DNA of 24,799 nt from a virus, in IMG/VR virus record IMGVR_UViG_3300030451_000474, positions 1 to 24,799 of that record; one strand, written 5' to 3'. Positions within the stretch are counted from its first letter, which is position 1; each line of letters opens with the position of its first letter. The translations under genes were made by a program, and so were the position numbers. This document shows positions 13,603 through 21,294 of the stretch, piece by piece. Under the pieces are notes generated by a model. That model was not told where the DNA came from, made no database searches, and saw nothing but the letters and a program-made list of their open reading frames with translations.

Positions 13603-15531
13603 CTAGGCGGCATTTAGGTCTACAACTTCACAGACTCCTGCCGTACAGGCTAGTTCTCGTGATCCTGTGGTGTTATCTTCTTTTTCATACTCTGAAAGAA
13701 CATCCCAGTCAACCTGTATTCCGCCCCTCTCAAGCTGCCACTCTACGTAGTCGTCAGCCTCTATGTCTTGATAAGGAGCCTGTTGATACGTGTGGTCAGA
13801 GTGTGGCAGGAATGATACACCGGATGCGATTTCAAAGTTATCGTACACCCAAGCACCTACATCCATCCACTCGTCTTCCTTGACACTGATTGTGACCGAA
13901 GGCTTGTGTTCGCACCAGTGAACGGCGTACACCTTCCATAACTCTAGCTGTTGAATAGCTGTCATCTGTGTTCTTGTCACCGCGCCTTCCGGAGACTGCA
14001 TGGCAAAAGAGAACACAGTGGTCGAGTCCGGCTTCATCACACAAGCCTCGCTATACACGCCCTGTTCCTTGAGGAATTGTGTCAAGGGGTCTTTGTTGTC
14101 ACCACGAACTGTACGGATGTAGTAGTCATTGTGACGAGCGTGAATTCCGCTTGCGGCGTCCACTAGCTGAGACACAGTGCCCGACGGCTTTACACAAGTG
14201 ATAGCAGCCGACTGTGGGATTCCAAGGAGTTTTGCAAAATCCTTGTTCACCTGCACGGCCACTTCTCGCATCTCTTCTAGCCAACGAACCGAGTCTATTG
14301 TTTTTGAAAGCACGGGATGATCCATGATACCAGTCAAGGATACGCCCAACAAGCGTTCTTCTTCTGTGTTTGTCTTCCATACCTTCCTCAAGTATTTGAA
14401 ATCAGTGAGCGTGGACTGTATCGTGCCGAGGATAGTAGCGATACGCACTTTGCGCTTGAGGTCTTCTAGGCTGTCTGCCTCTCGTACTACAACCTCTGAC
14501 AGATTGCAGAACTGATACGGACGCAGGATGATCTCACTGCAGGGGTTGGTGCCCCACATGTGACCTACCTCGCGTCGTCCGTTACGAGCTACTTGCTTGT
14601 CGGCAGCATCCCGATTGAACATGCCCCGCTCTCCCGACTTAGAGTCGTACAGAGCCAGCCACTCTCGCATGAATGTGCCCATCTCCGGCTTACCCTTGTA
14701 GGCAACAGAGTTATTAGCCAGCGCACGTTGACCTTCATTCTCCCACCATGCACCGGACTTGGCGTGTGCCATCTGATCATCGTTGAGGTTCGACAGGGAG
14801 ATCAAGGCAGAGCGACGTACACCGCCCACGACTACAATCTCGCCGATCTTACACATGAGATCGTGACACTCAATAGGGAACAGGCGACGGCCTTGTGCCT
14901 TCTTGAACATCTCTACTGCAAACAAAAAGAGGTCATTCAGTGGTCCGGGACCGGAAGCTCGTCCGCCCATAGTCTTCAAGCGTTCACCCGACGCACGTAC
15001 CGCCGACAAGTCCCACATAGGAATCTGTCCAGCGTAAAGCAGTGCGATAAGTTCACGCAACGACTTGGCCCATCCCGGCTTGGAATCGCCTACTTTGATT
15101 ACAGTGTCAGTGTCGTGCATGGCGTCACTGATGACAGGCAGCTTGTCTACGTTCTCCCGCTCGACAGAGAAGCCCACACCTGTGCCACACATCAGAATGT
15201 ACATACACTCGTCAAATGCACGGGGGCTGTCTACTGGAATGTAACTGCAGTTGTATCCGCAGATATTGTCACGAGCTAGCGCATCTCCTGCAGTCATCAT
15301 AGCCCTCATAGAAGGCATGACTTCTAAGCTAAGGATTGCATTTTCGATCTCTAGCAGATCAGCCTCATCCATGCTGTGGTCATGTTTGTTCTTTAGATGA
15401 TTGTGCATGAAGTTGGTGTATCGATACACTGTTTCATCCCAGTTCTCGCGGCGCTGTTCGTCATCGATCCAACGCGCATAACGGGACTTATGTATAAACT
15501 GTTGATAGGGTGTGGGCAGCATATTATTCAT
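13603..15531 (-). CDS. nrdJ: Class II (adenosylcobalamin-dependent) ribonucleotide reductase, monomeric type
   Basis: This 642-residue enzyme converts ribonucleotides to deoxyribonucleotides for phage DNA synthesis; class II enzymes need vitamin B12 coenzyme and no oxygen. The active-site motif NPCSEI is at 329-334 (thiyl Cys331, Glu333). The second catalytic-pair Cys342 lies 11 residues on, and its likely partner is Cys95 (CGYNCSY). The C-terminal redox pair is Cys629/Cys634 (ACTAGVC). These spacings match the Lactobacillus enzyme (Cys408/419, Cys731/736), which is a nucleoside triphosphate reductase. I took ATG 15531 because GAGGAG is seven bases upstream; a TTG five codons earlier lies on that site. 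The start overlaps the DUF3310 gene by eight bases. No key residue is missing. Confidence 0.95.
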   Translation of the reverse strand: MNNMLPTPYQQFIHKSRYARWIDDEQRRENWDETVYRYTNFMHNHLKNKHDHSMDEADLLEIENAILSLEVMPSMRAMMTAGDALARDNICGYNCSYIPVDSPRAFDECMYILMCGTGVGFSVERENVDKLPVISDAMHDTDTVIKVGDSKPGWAKSLRELIALLYAGQIPMWDLSAVRASGERLKTMGGRASGPGPLNDLFLFAVEMFKKAQGRRLFPIECHDLMCKIGEIVVVGGVRRSALISLSNLNDDQMAHAKSGAWWENEGQRALANNSVAYKGKPEMGTFMREWLALYDSKSGERGMFNRDAADKQVARNGRREVGHMWGTNPCSEIILRPYQFCNLSEVVVREADSLEDLKRKVRIATILGTIQSTLTDFKYLRKVWKTNTEEERLLGVSLTGIMDHPVLSKTIDSVRWLEEMREVAVQVNKDFAKLLGIPQSAAITCVKPSGTVSQLVDAASGIHARHNDYYIRTVRGDNKDPLTQFLKEQGVYSEACVMKPDSTTVFSFAMQSPEGAVTRTQMTAIQQLELWKVYAVHWCEHKPSVTISVKEDEWMDVGAWVYDNFEIASGVSFLPHSDHTYQQAPYQDIEADDYVEWQLERGGIQVDWDVLSEYEKEDNTTGSRELACTAGVCEVVDLNAA

Positions 15532-15880
15532 CTTCTTTCTCCTCAATAAGCCTGTCTAAATACCACTGTGCCTTTTTCAAATCCTGTACGCCGTTCTTGT
15601 AACGATACCGCCACAGATATTTGATAATGTTTCCTTGCAGGTAATATTCGTATCCATCGCCTGTAGCAGCGCGGATAGCATCGATGCACTCAATCCCTGC
15701 TTGATTGTAGTGCGGCGGACTGTTCACCATGTCCATCTGTTCTTTGTAATAGCCGTCTAACAGCTTCTCTTCATCAGCCGCCCACGCAGCATTCGCCCTG
15801 CTTTGCAGGCTAGCCATGCTCTCTTCTTCCGCCTTCATTTTCATATACGCCTCGTGTCTCATGGACTCCGCACTTATCAT
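15524..15880 (-). CDS. DUF3310 (SaV-like) protein
   Basis: The C-terminal half of this 118-residue protein (from VNSPPHY, residue 52) has the family pattern H-Y, G-I-E-C-I-D-A-I, then LQGNIIKYLWRYRYK and a helix with DLKKAQWYLDRLI. DUF3310 proteins are common in tailed phages and sometimes annotated as nucleotide kinases, but their role is not established to my knowledge. The N-terminal 45 residues are a charged helix rich in Met, Glu and Ala. It starts in an ATGA overlap with the MazG gene and overlaps NrdJ, so three nucleotide-related genes are in one translationally coupled block. Confidence 0.85.
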   Translation of the reverse strand: MISAESMRHEAYMKMKAEEESMASLQSRANAAWAADEEKLLDGYYKEQMDMVNSPPHYNQAGIECIDAIRAATGDGYEYYLQGNIIKYLWRYRYKNGVQDLKKAQWYLDRLIEEKEDE

Positions 15881-17322: not shown

Positions 17323-18216
17323 TTACATCTCCTTGTTCTTGAGACGGGTATACCAAACTTTCGGGGGGTTCTTAGCTGCCGAGGTTACTTTACCATGCAA
17401 CTGTGCGTCCGGCCAACAGTGATGCCTATAGCCGCAGAGGTTACACTCTTTTGCCAGCACCTTGTTTCCGGTGCGGATGATCTCGCCCTTGCGGCGATAG
17501 GTTTCGAATGTGTCGGGGAAAGGCTTCGAAAATTTGACATTAGGGTCTGTCAAAAGTTTGACACGACGCTTGGCTTCCGCGAGGTATTCTTCTTTGTCTT
17601 CTTGGCACCAATCCGGAACCTCTACGACAGCTACCTCACCGCTGGACTTGTTGACCACAATCCAGCCACCGAAGGGCATACCGACGGCCTCGGAGTACAG
17701 AAAGCCCTGCATTACGTAGCCAAAGGGATCGTCCTTCTTAATGCCCTCGTAGCCTTCGTAACCAGTGAACTTAGACTTGTATGCGTAGTCACTGGCAGAC
17801 TTGATATCCCACACCTTCTCCACACCACTCTCGTCGCGTATGATGACGTCGAGGGTGCCCTTGACTACGATGCCGTCAAGATCAAGCTCGACAGGTCGCT
17901 GATAGTCAACAATGTCTACCCCTGCCTCTTTCATAATGAGCATGATGATGCTCTCGGTGATGTCACCGAACAGGAATCTGAAAAGAGTATTGTAAGACAT
18001 CGACTCTTCGATGCCCTGCTTGTCAAGTATCTGTTGACAGATAGGTCGGCCTAGTCCCGACATACGAATACGCCACTCTCCCTTCTTACGAGAGAGTTGG
18101 GTTTCTGTCGAGGCCCGACAGTCTTCTGCAAACTCTTGAAGAACTGACGGGGGAACATCAGTGTCCCCCCGCAGCGCCCTAGACATAAAGTCTTGGATGT
18201 TAAGCAGCGTCAGCAT
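17323..18216 (-). CDS. Cas4/RecB-like PD-(D/E)XK exonuclease with Cys cluster
   Basis: In this 297-residue protein the nuclease residues are Glu88 (ITESII), Asp123 (GTLDVII), Asp137-Ile-Lys139 (VWDIKSAS) and Gln170 (GYVMQGFLY), as in the RecB/Cas4 family. Near the C-terminus are Cys258, Cys261 and Cys267 (CNLCGYRHHC), with Cys60 upstream as a likely fourth ligand, the arrangement of a Cas4-type 4Fe-4S cluster. I infer a DNA exonuclease for recombination or host DNA breakdown. ATG 18216 has GGAG seven bases upstream; the GTG just before it is less well placed. The first 17 bases overlap the upstream gene. No cas1 or cas2 gene and no CRISPR array is present, so a phage replication role is more likely than spacer capture. 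Confidence 0.88.
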   Translation of the reverse strand: MLTLLNIQDFMSRALRGDTDVPPSVLQEFAEDCRASTETQLSRKKGEWRIRMSGLGRPICQQILDKQGIEESMSYNTLFRFLFGDITESIIMLIMKEAGVDIVDYQRPVELDLDGIVVKGTLDVIIRDESGVEKVWDIKSASDYAYKSKFTGYEGYEGIKKDDPFGYVMQGFLYSEAVGMPFGGWIVVNKSSGEVAVVEVPDWCQEDKEEYLAEAKRRVKLLTDPNVKFSKPFPDTFETYRRKGEIIRTGNKVLAKECNLCGYRHHCWPDAQLHGKVTSAAKNPPKVWYTRLKNKEM

Positions 18217-19066
18217 CACCGAACTCCGCAGCTAAGTCAACGTCCTCTTGAGAGGCCATAGCTTTCACTGCCCCGCGATGCTCGGTCATCACTGTATCGT
18301 TATGACCTTTCACCGTATCGGCGAACAAGGTAAACAAGTCCTTGTCGGAGTCACTGATGCTTACTGTCTCGCCCATTTGAGCAACAGGCGTCCAGTAAGT
18401 CACACTGCCCTTTTTGTTCTTCATCGTAGAGAGCTTCATCTCTACACAAGCCATGAGCTTGTTCTTCTTCGTCAGCCCGTCGATGAAGTCAGAGATCGGC
18501 TTGAAGCCGGAACGCTTAAAGTAAGCGATCATTGGCTCGTCCGAAAGCTCGAAAGTATCACCGTCGGCATTTTTGAAGGTGCCTGCGATACGTCCGTAGA
18601 TGACTTGGTTACATACAACCGCACGAGAGTTGATGTACGATGGGTCATCCTTGTCGAGGGCATTCTCCTCGTCGCGGGTCAAGCGGCCACACTTGTTGCC
18701 ACCTGCACTGTCCGGAAACGATCCCCCGAAAGACGTCTTCTGAACGGACTTAGAGGCGAAACCACCCCTGCCCTCATTCATCTCCGCGTCCCACAGGCTG
18801 TATTCGAAAGTCCGAAGAAGGGGACGCACTACTACTTCGTCAGCGTAGAGCATCTGCCCACCGTGGAAAATCTTCCACGTTCCACGAGCCAAAGGCCGAC
18901 CATCGTCAGTCTCGGTATCGTAGTTGATATTCAGTCGGGGAAGCCCGACACGTTCTTGCACGGCACCTTGTCCGGTCATCTCCATCAGCGACTCAACGTC
19001 GTCATTCCGGAAAGCCTTCGCCATTGCGCCGAAGTCGTCAAGTTCCATAAGTTCATTCCCATCCAT
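18200..19066 (-). CDS. Probable single-stranded DNA-binding protein
   Basis: This 288-residue protein is encoded directly after the polymerase and before the exonuclease. Its N-terminus is acidic (ELMELDDFGAMAKAF); the middle is rich in strand-like segments with Lys, Arg and aromatic residues (LARGTWKIFHGGQMLYADEVVVRPLLRTFEYS). Cys at 126 and 152 lie within Gly- and Arg-containing loops. It ends in an acidic tail (QEDVDLAAEFGDADAA), as SSB proteins do to bind partner proteins. I recall proteins of this type annotated as ssDNA-binding in marine podoviruses, but the OB-fold cannot be proven by eye. The start ATG follows AAGGAG nine bases upstream. Confidence 0.7.
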   Translation of the reverse strand: MDGNELMELDDFGAMAKAFRNDDVESLMEMTGQGAVQERVGLPRLNINYDTETDDGRPLARGTWKIFHGGQMLYADEVVVRPLLRTFEYSLWDAEMNEGRGGFASKSVQKTSFGGSFPDSAGGNKCGRLTRDEENALDKDDPSYINSRAVVCNQVIYGRIAGTFKNADGDTFELSDEPMIAYFKRSGFKPISDFIDGLTKKNKLMACVEMKLSTMKNKKGSVTYWTPVAQMGETVSISDSDKDLFTLFADTVKGHNDTVMTEHRGAVKAMASQEDVDLAAEFGDADAA

Positions 19067-19104: not shown

Positions 19105-20640
19105 TTAGCCATATACAACGTCTAAGTCAAGCCAGTTTTTGCCTGCCTTTATTTCTATTCCAACAGGCATGTCATACGCAATACCATATCTTCTCATAGT
19201 TTCAAAGGGAAGAGATAGCATGGCGTGTTTCATAAGATCGATACACGTGTCAAATTCATCCGGATGGACATCCATCACAATCGAATCGTGTACCGTATTG
19301 CAGATCACGCTTTGTAGGTCCGCATCCTTTACCGCCTTGTGCAGAGACACAAGAGCGATAGGTAGCAGGTCTGCCGTGGCAAATCCCTGCACAGGATAGT
19401 TGCAGATGTTAGTCCTGTTCGTAGCTGTACCGTAGGGCGTCCAACGAGCGTCCGGGAAGGCGTACTGACGTCCCGAAGGTAGGGTGATGACCCTTTTCTC
19501 TACAGCCTCTCTCTGAAGCTCGTCGTGCCATTCAGTGACCTTTTCGTACTTCTCCTTGAAAGCACGATAGTAGTTCTTCTGTTCCGGGGTGCCGCTGGTG
19601 CCGCCATACAGAGGCTTGAAGGTGTGTGCCTTAGCATCTTGCCGCGAACAGCCGATGATCGACGCAGTGTAGCTGTGTACATCTGTACCATTGACGACAT
19701 CATCGTAGGCTTGCTGATCCTTGGCAAGAAACCCTGCTACCCGAAACTCTAGTTGAGAGTAGTCCCCTTCCACAATCTTTCCGCCGTCAAAACGACTCTC
19801 GACAACCTTCCGGATTTCGAAAGTGCTGCCGCGAGGCATATTTTGGAAGTTAGGATTGCGGCTCGAAAGGCGACCCGTCGCCGTAATCGTCTGCTGAAAC
19901 TCCGGGTGTATGAAAGCATTCGCATCGACATTGTTCTTCATCCCCTCAACAAACGTACTAAGATAGGTGCGTAAGGCGTTATATCTAACGTACTTTTCTA
20001 CAAACACACGGGCTTCACCTGTAAGTACAGTGAAGAAGTTTTCAAGTGTTTCACGATCAGTGCGGAAGCCTGCGGACGCTACATCCATAGGATTGCGCGG
20101 TATCATCTTGAAGCCTGCCACTTCATTAGTGTTATGATAGATGACGCCTGCCCCGTTACAGTGGGTGCATATACGCACTGCCTTGCCGGGACTCCCATCC
20201 TTGCGAGGCGGAGAGAACCTTCCCGTGCCTGCACAGTGACTACAGTGTTCCGCCCGTGTCTTGTACACTACTTTGGTATTTCGTGACACGTTGGCAGCAA
20301 ACTCTCGGGGCGTCATACGAGGACGCATCTTCGGCTTGGCAGTGGCCCCGCGTATCTCCGTGCCTAGATTGAAGATGCTCTTCCATGTGCCCTTGTTAAG
20401 AACGGCCCGTGAGTAGAACAATCTAGATTTGTCGTCCGGACTGTTTAGGTTCACGGGTGTATCGCCCATAGCCTCTTGAGCTAGGTCACGCAACTCACCT
20501 TCTAGAATGAGTAGTTCCTGTCTGTACTGATCTTCGATCTCTTCAAGCGTGTCAAGATTGATCTTCAGTCCGCTGCGTTCGATATCACAGAGAACATCCG
20601 TCATCTCCATAGACAGTTTAATTGTCGGTACGAGGCTCAC
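19105..20640 (-). CDS. polA: Family A DNA polymerase (polymerase domain) with DnaJ-type zinc insertion
   Basis: This 511-residue replicative polymerase lacks a fused exonuclease domain. Motifs in order are TGRLSSRNPNFQN (255-267), motif A DYSQLE with Asp293, motif B Arg333-Lys337-Phe341-Tyr345 (KAHTFKPLYG) and motif C His451-Asp452-Ser453. Phe341 corresponds to E. coli Phe762; in marine phages Phe or Tyr at this place has been linked to a lytic life style. Before the palm are two DnaJ-like motifs, CSHCAGTG (133-140) and CTHCNGAG (158-165), enough to hold one zinc. The insertion lies where T7 gp5 has its thioredoxin-binding loop. Start GTG 20640 has GAGGAG seven bases upstream and overlaps the exonuclease gene. 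Confidence 0.95.
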   Translation of the reverse strand: MSLVPTIKLSMEMTDVLCDIERSGLKINLDTLEEIEDQYRQELLILEGELRDLAQEAMGDTPVNLNSPDDKSRLFYSRAVLNKGTWKSIFNLGTEIRGATAKPKMRPRMTPREFAANVSRNTKVVYKTRAEHCSHCAGTGRFSPPRKDGSPGKAVRICTHCNGAGVIYHNTNEVAGFKMIPRNPMDVASAGFRTDRETLENFFTVLTGEARVFVEKYVRYNALRTYLSTFVEGMKNNVDANAFIHPEFQQTITATGRLSSRNPNFQNMPRGSTFEIRKVVESRFDGGKIVEGDYSQLEFRVAGFLAKDQQAYDDVVNGTDVHSYTASIIGCSRQDAKAHTFKPLYGGTSGTPEQKNYYRAFKEKYEKVTEWHDELQREAVEKRVITLPSGRQYAFPDARWTPYGTATNRTNICNYPVQGFATADLLPIALVSLHKAVKDADLQSVICNTVHDSIVMDVHPDEFDTCIDLMKHAMLSLPFETMRRYGIAYDMPVGIEIKAGKNWLDLDVVYG

Positions 20641-21181
20641 TGTATATCTCCTCAAATGTTGTGCCCAGCTTTTCTAGCTGTGCGAGAGCTATCTCTTCGG
20701 TAGCCATAACGTCAGCTATTCCATACTCTCGTACGATGTCCCACGGGATGTCGTAGAACGTGTACCCCTCCTCAAGGTACGGTACAACGAGGTCTTTCTC
20801 TTTCTTGGTGACGTTATACTTCTCTGCAAGACTAGCAAGTCCAAGAGGCCGACTTTGCGATCTCGCGAGTATATATTCCGCCACCATCGTATCGTAGACA
20901 TTACCATCGTAAACAAAACCACACTCCCTTATCCATGCCAAGTCGAACTTGACGTTGTGACCGACAATGACGTCGGCGTGATCTAGTGCTAGTTGAAACT
21001 TCTCCGCAGCGGCCTGTGTCGGAGGTTCAGTCGAATGATAGTAACAGTCGTAGTCTACACCACTGACTAGCCACTTGTAACCTACAGAGACGAGATGATT
21101 GCCAAAGTAAGGCAGAGGGGTATGCCCACCGCCTGTCTTCTCCTTGTGCGTAGTCTCTACATCAAACGTAAGAACATTCAT
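20618..21181 (-). CDS. Stand-alone 3'-5' exonuclease (proofreading domain of the polymerase)
   Basis: This 187-residue protein is a DnaQ-like RNase H fold. Exo I is FDVET (Asp7, Glu9), Exo II is GHNVKFDLAW (Asp80) and Exo III is YGIAD (Tyr153, Asp157); all four acidic metal ligands are present. The pattern matches the proofreading domain of family A polymerases, here encoded apart from the polymerase domain, with the two genes overlapping by 23 bases. I infer that the product works in trans with the polymerase. ATG 21181 has GGAG eight bases upstream; the GTG three codons earlier is closer to that site and less likely. The length is that of a bare exonuclease domain. Confidence 0.93.
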   Translation of the reverse strand: MNVLTFDVETTHKEKTGGGHTPLPYFGNHLVSVGYKWLVSGVDYDCYYHSTEPPTQAAAEKFQLALDHADVIVGHNVKFDLAWIRECGFVYDGNVYDTMVAEYILARSQSRPLGLASLAEKYNVTKKEKDLVVPYLEEGYTFYDIPWDIVREYGIADVMATEEIALAQLEKLGTTFEEIYSEPRTDN

Positions 21182-21186
21182 TATAA

Positions 21187-21294
21187 TCACTCCGCCAGCG
21201 CAGCAAACAGTATGCCTGCGCCAACAACTGACGTTGCAGGTTCACCGTGGCCCATCATCAACAAGCCAAGTAGTAGCATAACCATAGCCCACAT
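21187..21294 (-). CDS. 35-residue membrane microprotein
   Basis: ATG 21294 overlaps the helicase stop as TGATG. The stop is five bases before the exonuclease start, and GGAG near its end serves as the exonuclease ribosome site. The product is almost wholly hydrophobic: an N-terminal stretch (MWAMVMLLLGLLMM), a short polar turn (GHGEPATS) and a second stretch (VVGAGILFAALAE). This could be a helical hairpin or one bent membrane helix. I recognise no family. Position in the replication core suggests an early role such as membrane attachment of replication proteins or effects on the host envelope; a small holin-type protein is the alternative. Both are inference. Confidence 0.6.
   Translation of the reverse strand: MWAMVMLLLGLLMMGHGEPATSVVGAGILFAALAE

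Follow-up and report, generated by a model that had tools for sequence, protein, structure and literature searches.

The HMO-2011-type phages dominate in the ocean, where they are widely distributed (PMC9038755). Their family A DNA polymerases carry a partial DnaJ central domain that has been placed "between exonuclease and polymerase domains" (PMC9038755, PMC6918029, PMC8528129). The module itself is thus known, as the first-pass annotation of the DNA described here had stated; the word "thumb" is absent from these three accounts, and the published descriptions consulted assign no tested role to the polymerase module. Elsewhere in family A, thumb insertions have precedents. In a simulation, the thioredoxin-binding loop of T7 gp5 closes over the DNA via basic residues that are exposed by thioredoxin (PMC5984650), and insert 1 of Pol theta, likewise a thumb insertion, is described as touching the minor groove of the DNA and as promoting the processivity of synthesis (PMC9962433). 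In the literature searched, we found no relevant report of CXXCXGXG zinc motifs located in the thumb of a polymerase. The place of the module within the thumb, and the two-protein arrangement of proofreader and polymerase in the clade studied here, seem not to have been described previously.

Polymerase gene and its relatives

The window, i.e., the whole stretch of DNA that was analyzed, is a complete virus record of 24.8 kb and is probably a genome fragment. The features discussed below are listed in Table 1. The open reading frame of the polymerase contains no exonuclease domain. Nearly all relatives have GTG or ATG as the start codon at this position, and in the window GAGGAG lies seven bases upstream of the GTG at 20640. 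The nearest cultured relatives of the polymerase are those of HTVC033P, CRP-3, and HMO-2011 (47%, 42%, and 41% identity, respectively, over nearly the full length), and in the tree it falls within the HMO-2011 group, where it forms a clade together with HTVC033P (support 96/96). It resembles the polymerases of HMO-2011, HTVC033P, and CRP-1 to CRP-3 in that all belong to family A, carry two zinc motifs at the same place, share 37-47% identity over nearly the whole polymerase, and have similar gene neighbors (primase, helicase, and polymerase). In those isolates, however, the exonuclease is fused to the polymerase, whereas in the clade of the window it is encoded by a separate, overlapping gene.

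Table 1. Features of the polymerase locus and their positions in the window
Feature	Coordinates	Strand	Basis
Separate 3'-5' exonuclease gene, 23-base overlap with the polymerase gene	20618..21190	-	Pfam DNA_pol_A_exo1, E 2.3e-12
Ribosome-binding site of the polymerase gene, GAGGAG, inside the exonuclease gene	20648..20653	-	Sequence; similar in relatives
Family A DNA polymerase, 511 aa, GTG start at 20640	19105..20640	-	Pfam DNA_pol_A, E 4.8e-52
Predicted thumb helix H1, residues 68-76, directly precedes the insert	20413..20439	-	AlphaFold model; aligned to Klenow FNLSSTKQLQTILFEKQ
Predicted thumb insertion, residues 77-195 (~119 residues)	20056..20412	-	AlphaFold model, pLDDT mostly 77-96
First knuckle CSHCAGTG, residues 133-140	20244-20221	-	C133, C136, G138, and G140 in 308/308
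Second knuckle CTHCNGAG, residues 158-165	20169-20146	-	C158, C161, and G165 in 308/308; G163 in 252/308
Predicted thumb helix H2, residues 196-201, canonical fold resumes	20038..20055	-	AlphaFold model; FRTDRETLE aligned to Klenow STSEEVLEE
Motif A DYSQLE, catalytic Asp293	19747..19764	-	Sequence; polymerase alignment
Gene downstream of the polymerase, product of 288 aa with a conserved acidic C-terminal tail; candidate single-strand binding protein	18200..19066	-	Tail composition

Separate exonuclease and polymerase genes

The exonuclease and the polymerase are split into two overlapping genes in all 79 window-clade loci with readable context, whereas they are fused in one gene at 224 loci outside this clade and in the seven cultured phages for which the gene content was inspected. 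A frameshift or a sequencing error was considered as the cause of the split and was rejected because all 79 loci show it, nearly all of them with a GTG or ATG start at the junction. The split loci form a single clade (support 100/100), which is sister to the HTVC033P group (96/96). From these sequences, the split is most simply explained as a single old fission of a fused HMO-2011-type polymerase, long maintained since.

The published HMO-2011-type architecture includes a fused exonuclease, which the 511-aa polymerase of the window lacks; this polymerase is a variant within the HMO-2011 group rather than a plain member of that architecture. The literature searched yielded no relevant report of a phage family A polymerase whose exonuclease is encoded by a gene of its own. 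The published DNA polymerase tree was built from sequences longer than 540 aa with at least 80% coverage (PMC9038755), so that polymerases of 511 aa would fall outside it, and surveys with a length cutoff for the polymerase would probably overlook the split-gene clade.

Zinc motifs and their conservation

The positions of the two CxxCxGxG motifs, the 17-residue gap between them, and their distance of about 130 residues from motif A (Asp293) are exactly those given in the first-pass annotation when residues are counted from the GTG at 20640. These two are the only matches to the pattern in the window in all six frames. Among 200,000 shuffles of the polymerase sequence, none contained two such motifs, and 116 contained one.

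Conservation was assessed in 308 aligned polymerases, including that of the window, which fall into 43 clusters at 80% identity. The four cysteines are invariant throughout the set, as are Gly138, Gly140, and Gly165, and the first glycine of the second motif (Gly163) is replaced in 56 polymerases, which would therefore be excluded if, as published, two strict CXXCXGXG motifs were required. The spacing from CxxC to CxxC is 21 residues in most polymerases and 33-34 residues in one clade. Outside the clade of the window, identity to its insert falls to 31-43%, and the retention of all four cysteines despite this divergence suggests that selection holds the putative metal site more tightly than its surroundings.

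Four viral-contig scans that started from zinc-type polymerases revealed no relative without the module or without its cysteines, nor did the full-length hits in genome contigs of marine metagenome-assembled genomes (MAGs); owing to these seeds, the search is biased toward close relatives and could miss module-less variants. Cellular Pol I and VpV262-type polymerases do not have CxxCxGxG motifs. In phage records other than the 12 of the HMO-2011 type, the module showed only weak likeness, mostly to primase regions, and a viral-structure search with the module returned mostly small proteins, several of which are named DnaJ-like, together with one low-probability polymerase match.

Location of the insert in the thumb

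The AlphaFold model of the polymerase, which was calculated with 45 sequences and represents the protein without zinc or DNA, has a mean pLDDT of 90.5 and a pTM of 0.78. Compared with solved structures, it matches Bst with a Z of 32.8 over 386 residues (rmsd = 2.8), Taq and Klenow with Z values of 31.6 and 31.1, respectively, and T7 with a Z of 28.9 over 382 residues; the Bst and T7 superpositions leave about 120 of the 511 residues unmatched. The predicted thumb consists of helix H (residues 29-58), H1 (68-76), the insert (77-195), H2 (196-201), and I (208-237), in which the helix names are assigned by analogy with Klenow. Within the insert, the model shows a hairpin, a helix (111-121), and a β-stalk (122-132 and 166-174) that bears the zinc knuckles.

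The profile alignment to Klenow is continuous through ILFEKQ (H1), breaks at the insert, and resumes past it. When this insert and the T7 loop were both removed before alignment, the insertion site fell after H1, at about Klenow residues 594-602. According to both alignment and model, the entire insert belongs to the thumb, where it separates helix H1 from helix H2. The earlier proposal that the zinc module is an independent thumb insertion is borne out by the break in the Klenow alignment, with which the model agrees, and the predicted fold keeps the zinc motifs in the thumb and not away from it. The loosely defined "partial DnaJ domain between two domains" thereby becomes an insertion of exact location, in the region of the polymerase that holds the duplex. 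Deletion of Klenow residues 590-613, which we take to be the same thumb tip as the insert site, reportedly lowers DNA affinity and processivity.

The insert is absent from VpV262-, StenR-, and Vibrio 1.209-type polymerases. For the module-less sequences of Stenotrophomonas phage StenR_269, VpV262, and Vibrio 1.209, the alignment covers the NLNSPxxL..Y helix and is taken up again at the FxTDKxT helix. As a separate observation, a thioredoxin-domain gene (809-1075) of StenR_269 is located close upstream of its family A polymerase, which has neither the zinc module nor a T7-like loop.

Charge and possible role of the insert

The polymerase is near-neutral outside its strongly basic insert. The net charge of the insert is +14, whereas segments of equal length more than 60 residues away reach at most +4. 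The basic excess of the insert is found in every clade and is strong in that of the window; positions 78, 83, 127, 146, and 178 are lysine or arginine in at least 97% of the weight, and no position is acidic at 80%. This charge fits both the docking of a partner and the gripping of DNA. On the grounds of the basic insert and of the thumb-insertion precedents in Pol theta and T7, we favor a zinc-stiffened extension of the thumb over docking.

In the mechanism that we propose, a one-zinc DnaJ-type module would sit on a short β-stalk in the H1-H2 loop, at the tip of the thumb. The zinc would most likely make the β-stalk rigid, and the basic insert would most likely extend the thumb along the duplex product and slow dissociation. 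It would act as a built-in processivity element that does, by convergence, part of the job of the thioredoxin-stiffened T7 loop, and it might also dock the acidic tails of phage partners. We infer zinc occupancy, DNA contact, and an effect on processivity for the insert, and we give about an even chance to the reading of the polymerase as an HMO-2011-type replicase whose thumb tip carries a zinc-stiffened basic extension that holds duplex DNA and thereby confers processivity. The thumb insertions 1 of Pol theta and of the plant organellar polymerases are comparable in that family A thumb insertions are tied to DNA contact, processivity, or lesion bypass; however, no zinc motif has been described in them, and that of Pol theta is shorter. 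Other observations run counter to a clamp. In Pol theta, DNA binding was unaffected by one point mutation in insert 1 (PMC11080051). Proteins are frequent binding partners of DnaJ-type modules, as TRAP is of anti-TRAP, and the C-terminal zinc finger of UvrA is reported not to bind DNA directly, according to a study cited in PMC5053424.

The main rival to the thumb clamp is the docking of an acidic phage tail. The basic module would bind the acidic C-terminal tail of the phage single-strand binding protein (SSB), perhaps the 288-aa protein encoded downstream, and would tether the polymerase at the fork. The T7 thioredoxin loop, which binds the acidic tails of gp2.5 and gp4, provides the model: it is reported to bind the helicase-primase and the DNA binding protein (Hamdan 2005, cited in PMC3997047), as well as the C-terminal tail of the T7 SSB (PMC7699545). 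The last 15 residues of the 288-aa family contain on average 5.4 D/E and 0.4 K/R (244 sequences), whereas the tail of the helicase is not acidic (1.8 D/E versus 1.7 K/R), and the insert has the charge that such docking calls for. The 288-aa protein has relatives in most HMO-2011-type loci, and its tail makes it a possible phage SSB; no match to the PDB, to a protein family, or to a named PHROG gave it an identity. It is, however, only a candidate SSB, and many SSBs that bind elsewhere also have acidic tails. We regard docking of this kind as unlikely.

It is improbable that the insert serves fidelity, lesion bypass, or strand displacement with no effect on processivity, as in plant organellar polymerases. 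The thumb insertion 1 of AtPOLI is lysine-rich and is needed for lesion bypass and lyase activity (PMC7699545), which gives this reading a precedent, but nothing in the sequence of the window points there, and the plant insertions have no described zinc motif.

Nature of the zinc module

To judge from sequence profiles and the modeled fold, the module in the insert is most likely a DnaJ-type zinc module and not a DnaJ. The Pfam model of the DnaJ central domain scores 19.4 bits on the polymerase, below the curated cutoff of 32.7, and all 43 cluster members match this domain at E values of up to 1 (best, 3.9e-08). A sequence profile of the module matches lambda Q (E = 0.0038) and DnaJ (E = 0.0037), the latter at motifs that are adjacent in the E. 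coli protein. The first fold neighbors of a model of the module alone (mean pLDDT = 83.7, pTM = 0.53) are BSD2, DnaJA2, DnaJA3, and anti-TRAP, to which E. coli DnaJ, UvrA, and lambda Q are added after realignment. These matches (Foldseek and VIA-align) are weak (E = 0.05-0.75, best Z = 4.5), low scores being expected for about 50 residues, and nearly every row above a Z of 2.5 is a DnaJ-type zinc module. Anti-TRAP, the C-terminal zinc module of UvrA, and lambda Q resemble the module in being two-motif zinc modules that are either separate or inserted in another protein; the host proteins and their functions are different, however, and the scores are weak (Z = 2.5-3.7). The invariance of the four cysteines would also suit an iron-sulfur cluster or a redox switch with no structural zinc, but this is very improbable, as the glycine pattern, the profile matches to DnaJ and lambda Q, and the fold neighbors are all those of zinc modules.

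The module shares the CxxCxGxG knuckles and a profile match with the central cysteine-rich domain of DnaJ (Hsp40), which has four motifs and two zinc sites, whereas the module has two motifs and a single possible zinc site, and the Pfam search detected no J domain in the polymerase. It is on these two differences that we call it DnaJ-type and yet not a DnaJ. A co-chaperone role, in which the module recruits host DnaK or acts as a DnaJ, would agree with the sequence likeness to the DnaJ central domain and with the critical part of DnaJ in lambda replication that is noted in PMC9038755. We consider it highly improbable, because the J domain and the second zinc site are missing and the only HPD tripeptide of the polymerase lies in the palm, after motif C.

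Comparison with the T7 thioredoxin loop

The thioredoxin loop of T7 lies between helices H and H1, at Klenow residues 570/578 when the insertions are removed before alignment. A first all-against-all alignment had suggested the same site for the loop and the zinc insert, which was refuted once both insertions were removed. Both are basic thumb insertions in family A phage polymerases (net charge of +6 in 76 residues for the T7 loop versus +14 for the insert); however, the T7 insertion requires thioredoxin, whereas that of the window, in the H1-H2 loop, has a putative metal site of its own. No shared sequence was seen between them. The remark in the first-pass annotation that the module lies at almost the same distance from motif A as the T7 loop is loosely true but misleading, since the insertion sites differ, and its suggestion that the module stands "in place of thioredoxin" is not supported as a statement of homology because the thumb loops are different. 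Located in different loops, the two insertions are probably convergent. That the insert is a homologue of the T7 thioredoxin-binding domain and uses host thioredoxin is extremely improbable: the subdomain is the same and the sign of the charge is similar, but the thumb loop is a different one, no common sequence was seen, and the insert carries a DnaJ-type module instead.

If the module acts as a clamp, family A phage polymerases have found two independent ways to processivity. We put forward only tentatively the wider scenario in which the family A replicase of a large group of marine phages became processive without a host factor through a self-contained, zinc-stiffened clamp in the thumb that arose independently of T7, and in which one branch then split off the exonuclease, which resulted in a two-subunit replicase.

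Other genes and contigs

Identical viral contigs of the HMO-2011 type occur in the bins of two different bacterial MAGs (Flavobacteriales TMED123 and Neomarinimicrobiota MED589), and a Euryarchaeota MAG contains a similar one; these are likely the result of binning contamination and give no evidence of the host. Two 2OG-Fe(II) oxygenase genes (PF13640; 13013-13588 and 23316-23951), both on the minus strand, are present in this single phage fragment. The ribonucleotide reductase encoded at 13603-15546 (minus strand) is apparently B12-dependent (class II), and an adenosylcobalamin-dependent ribonucleotide reductase is encoded downstream of the replication genes in HMO-2011.
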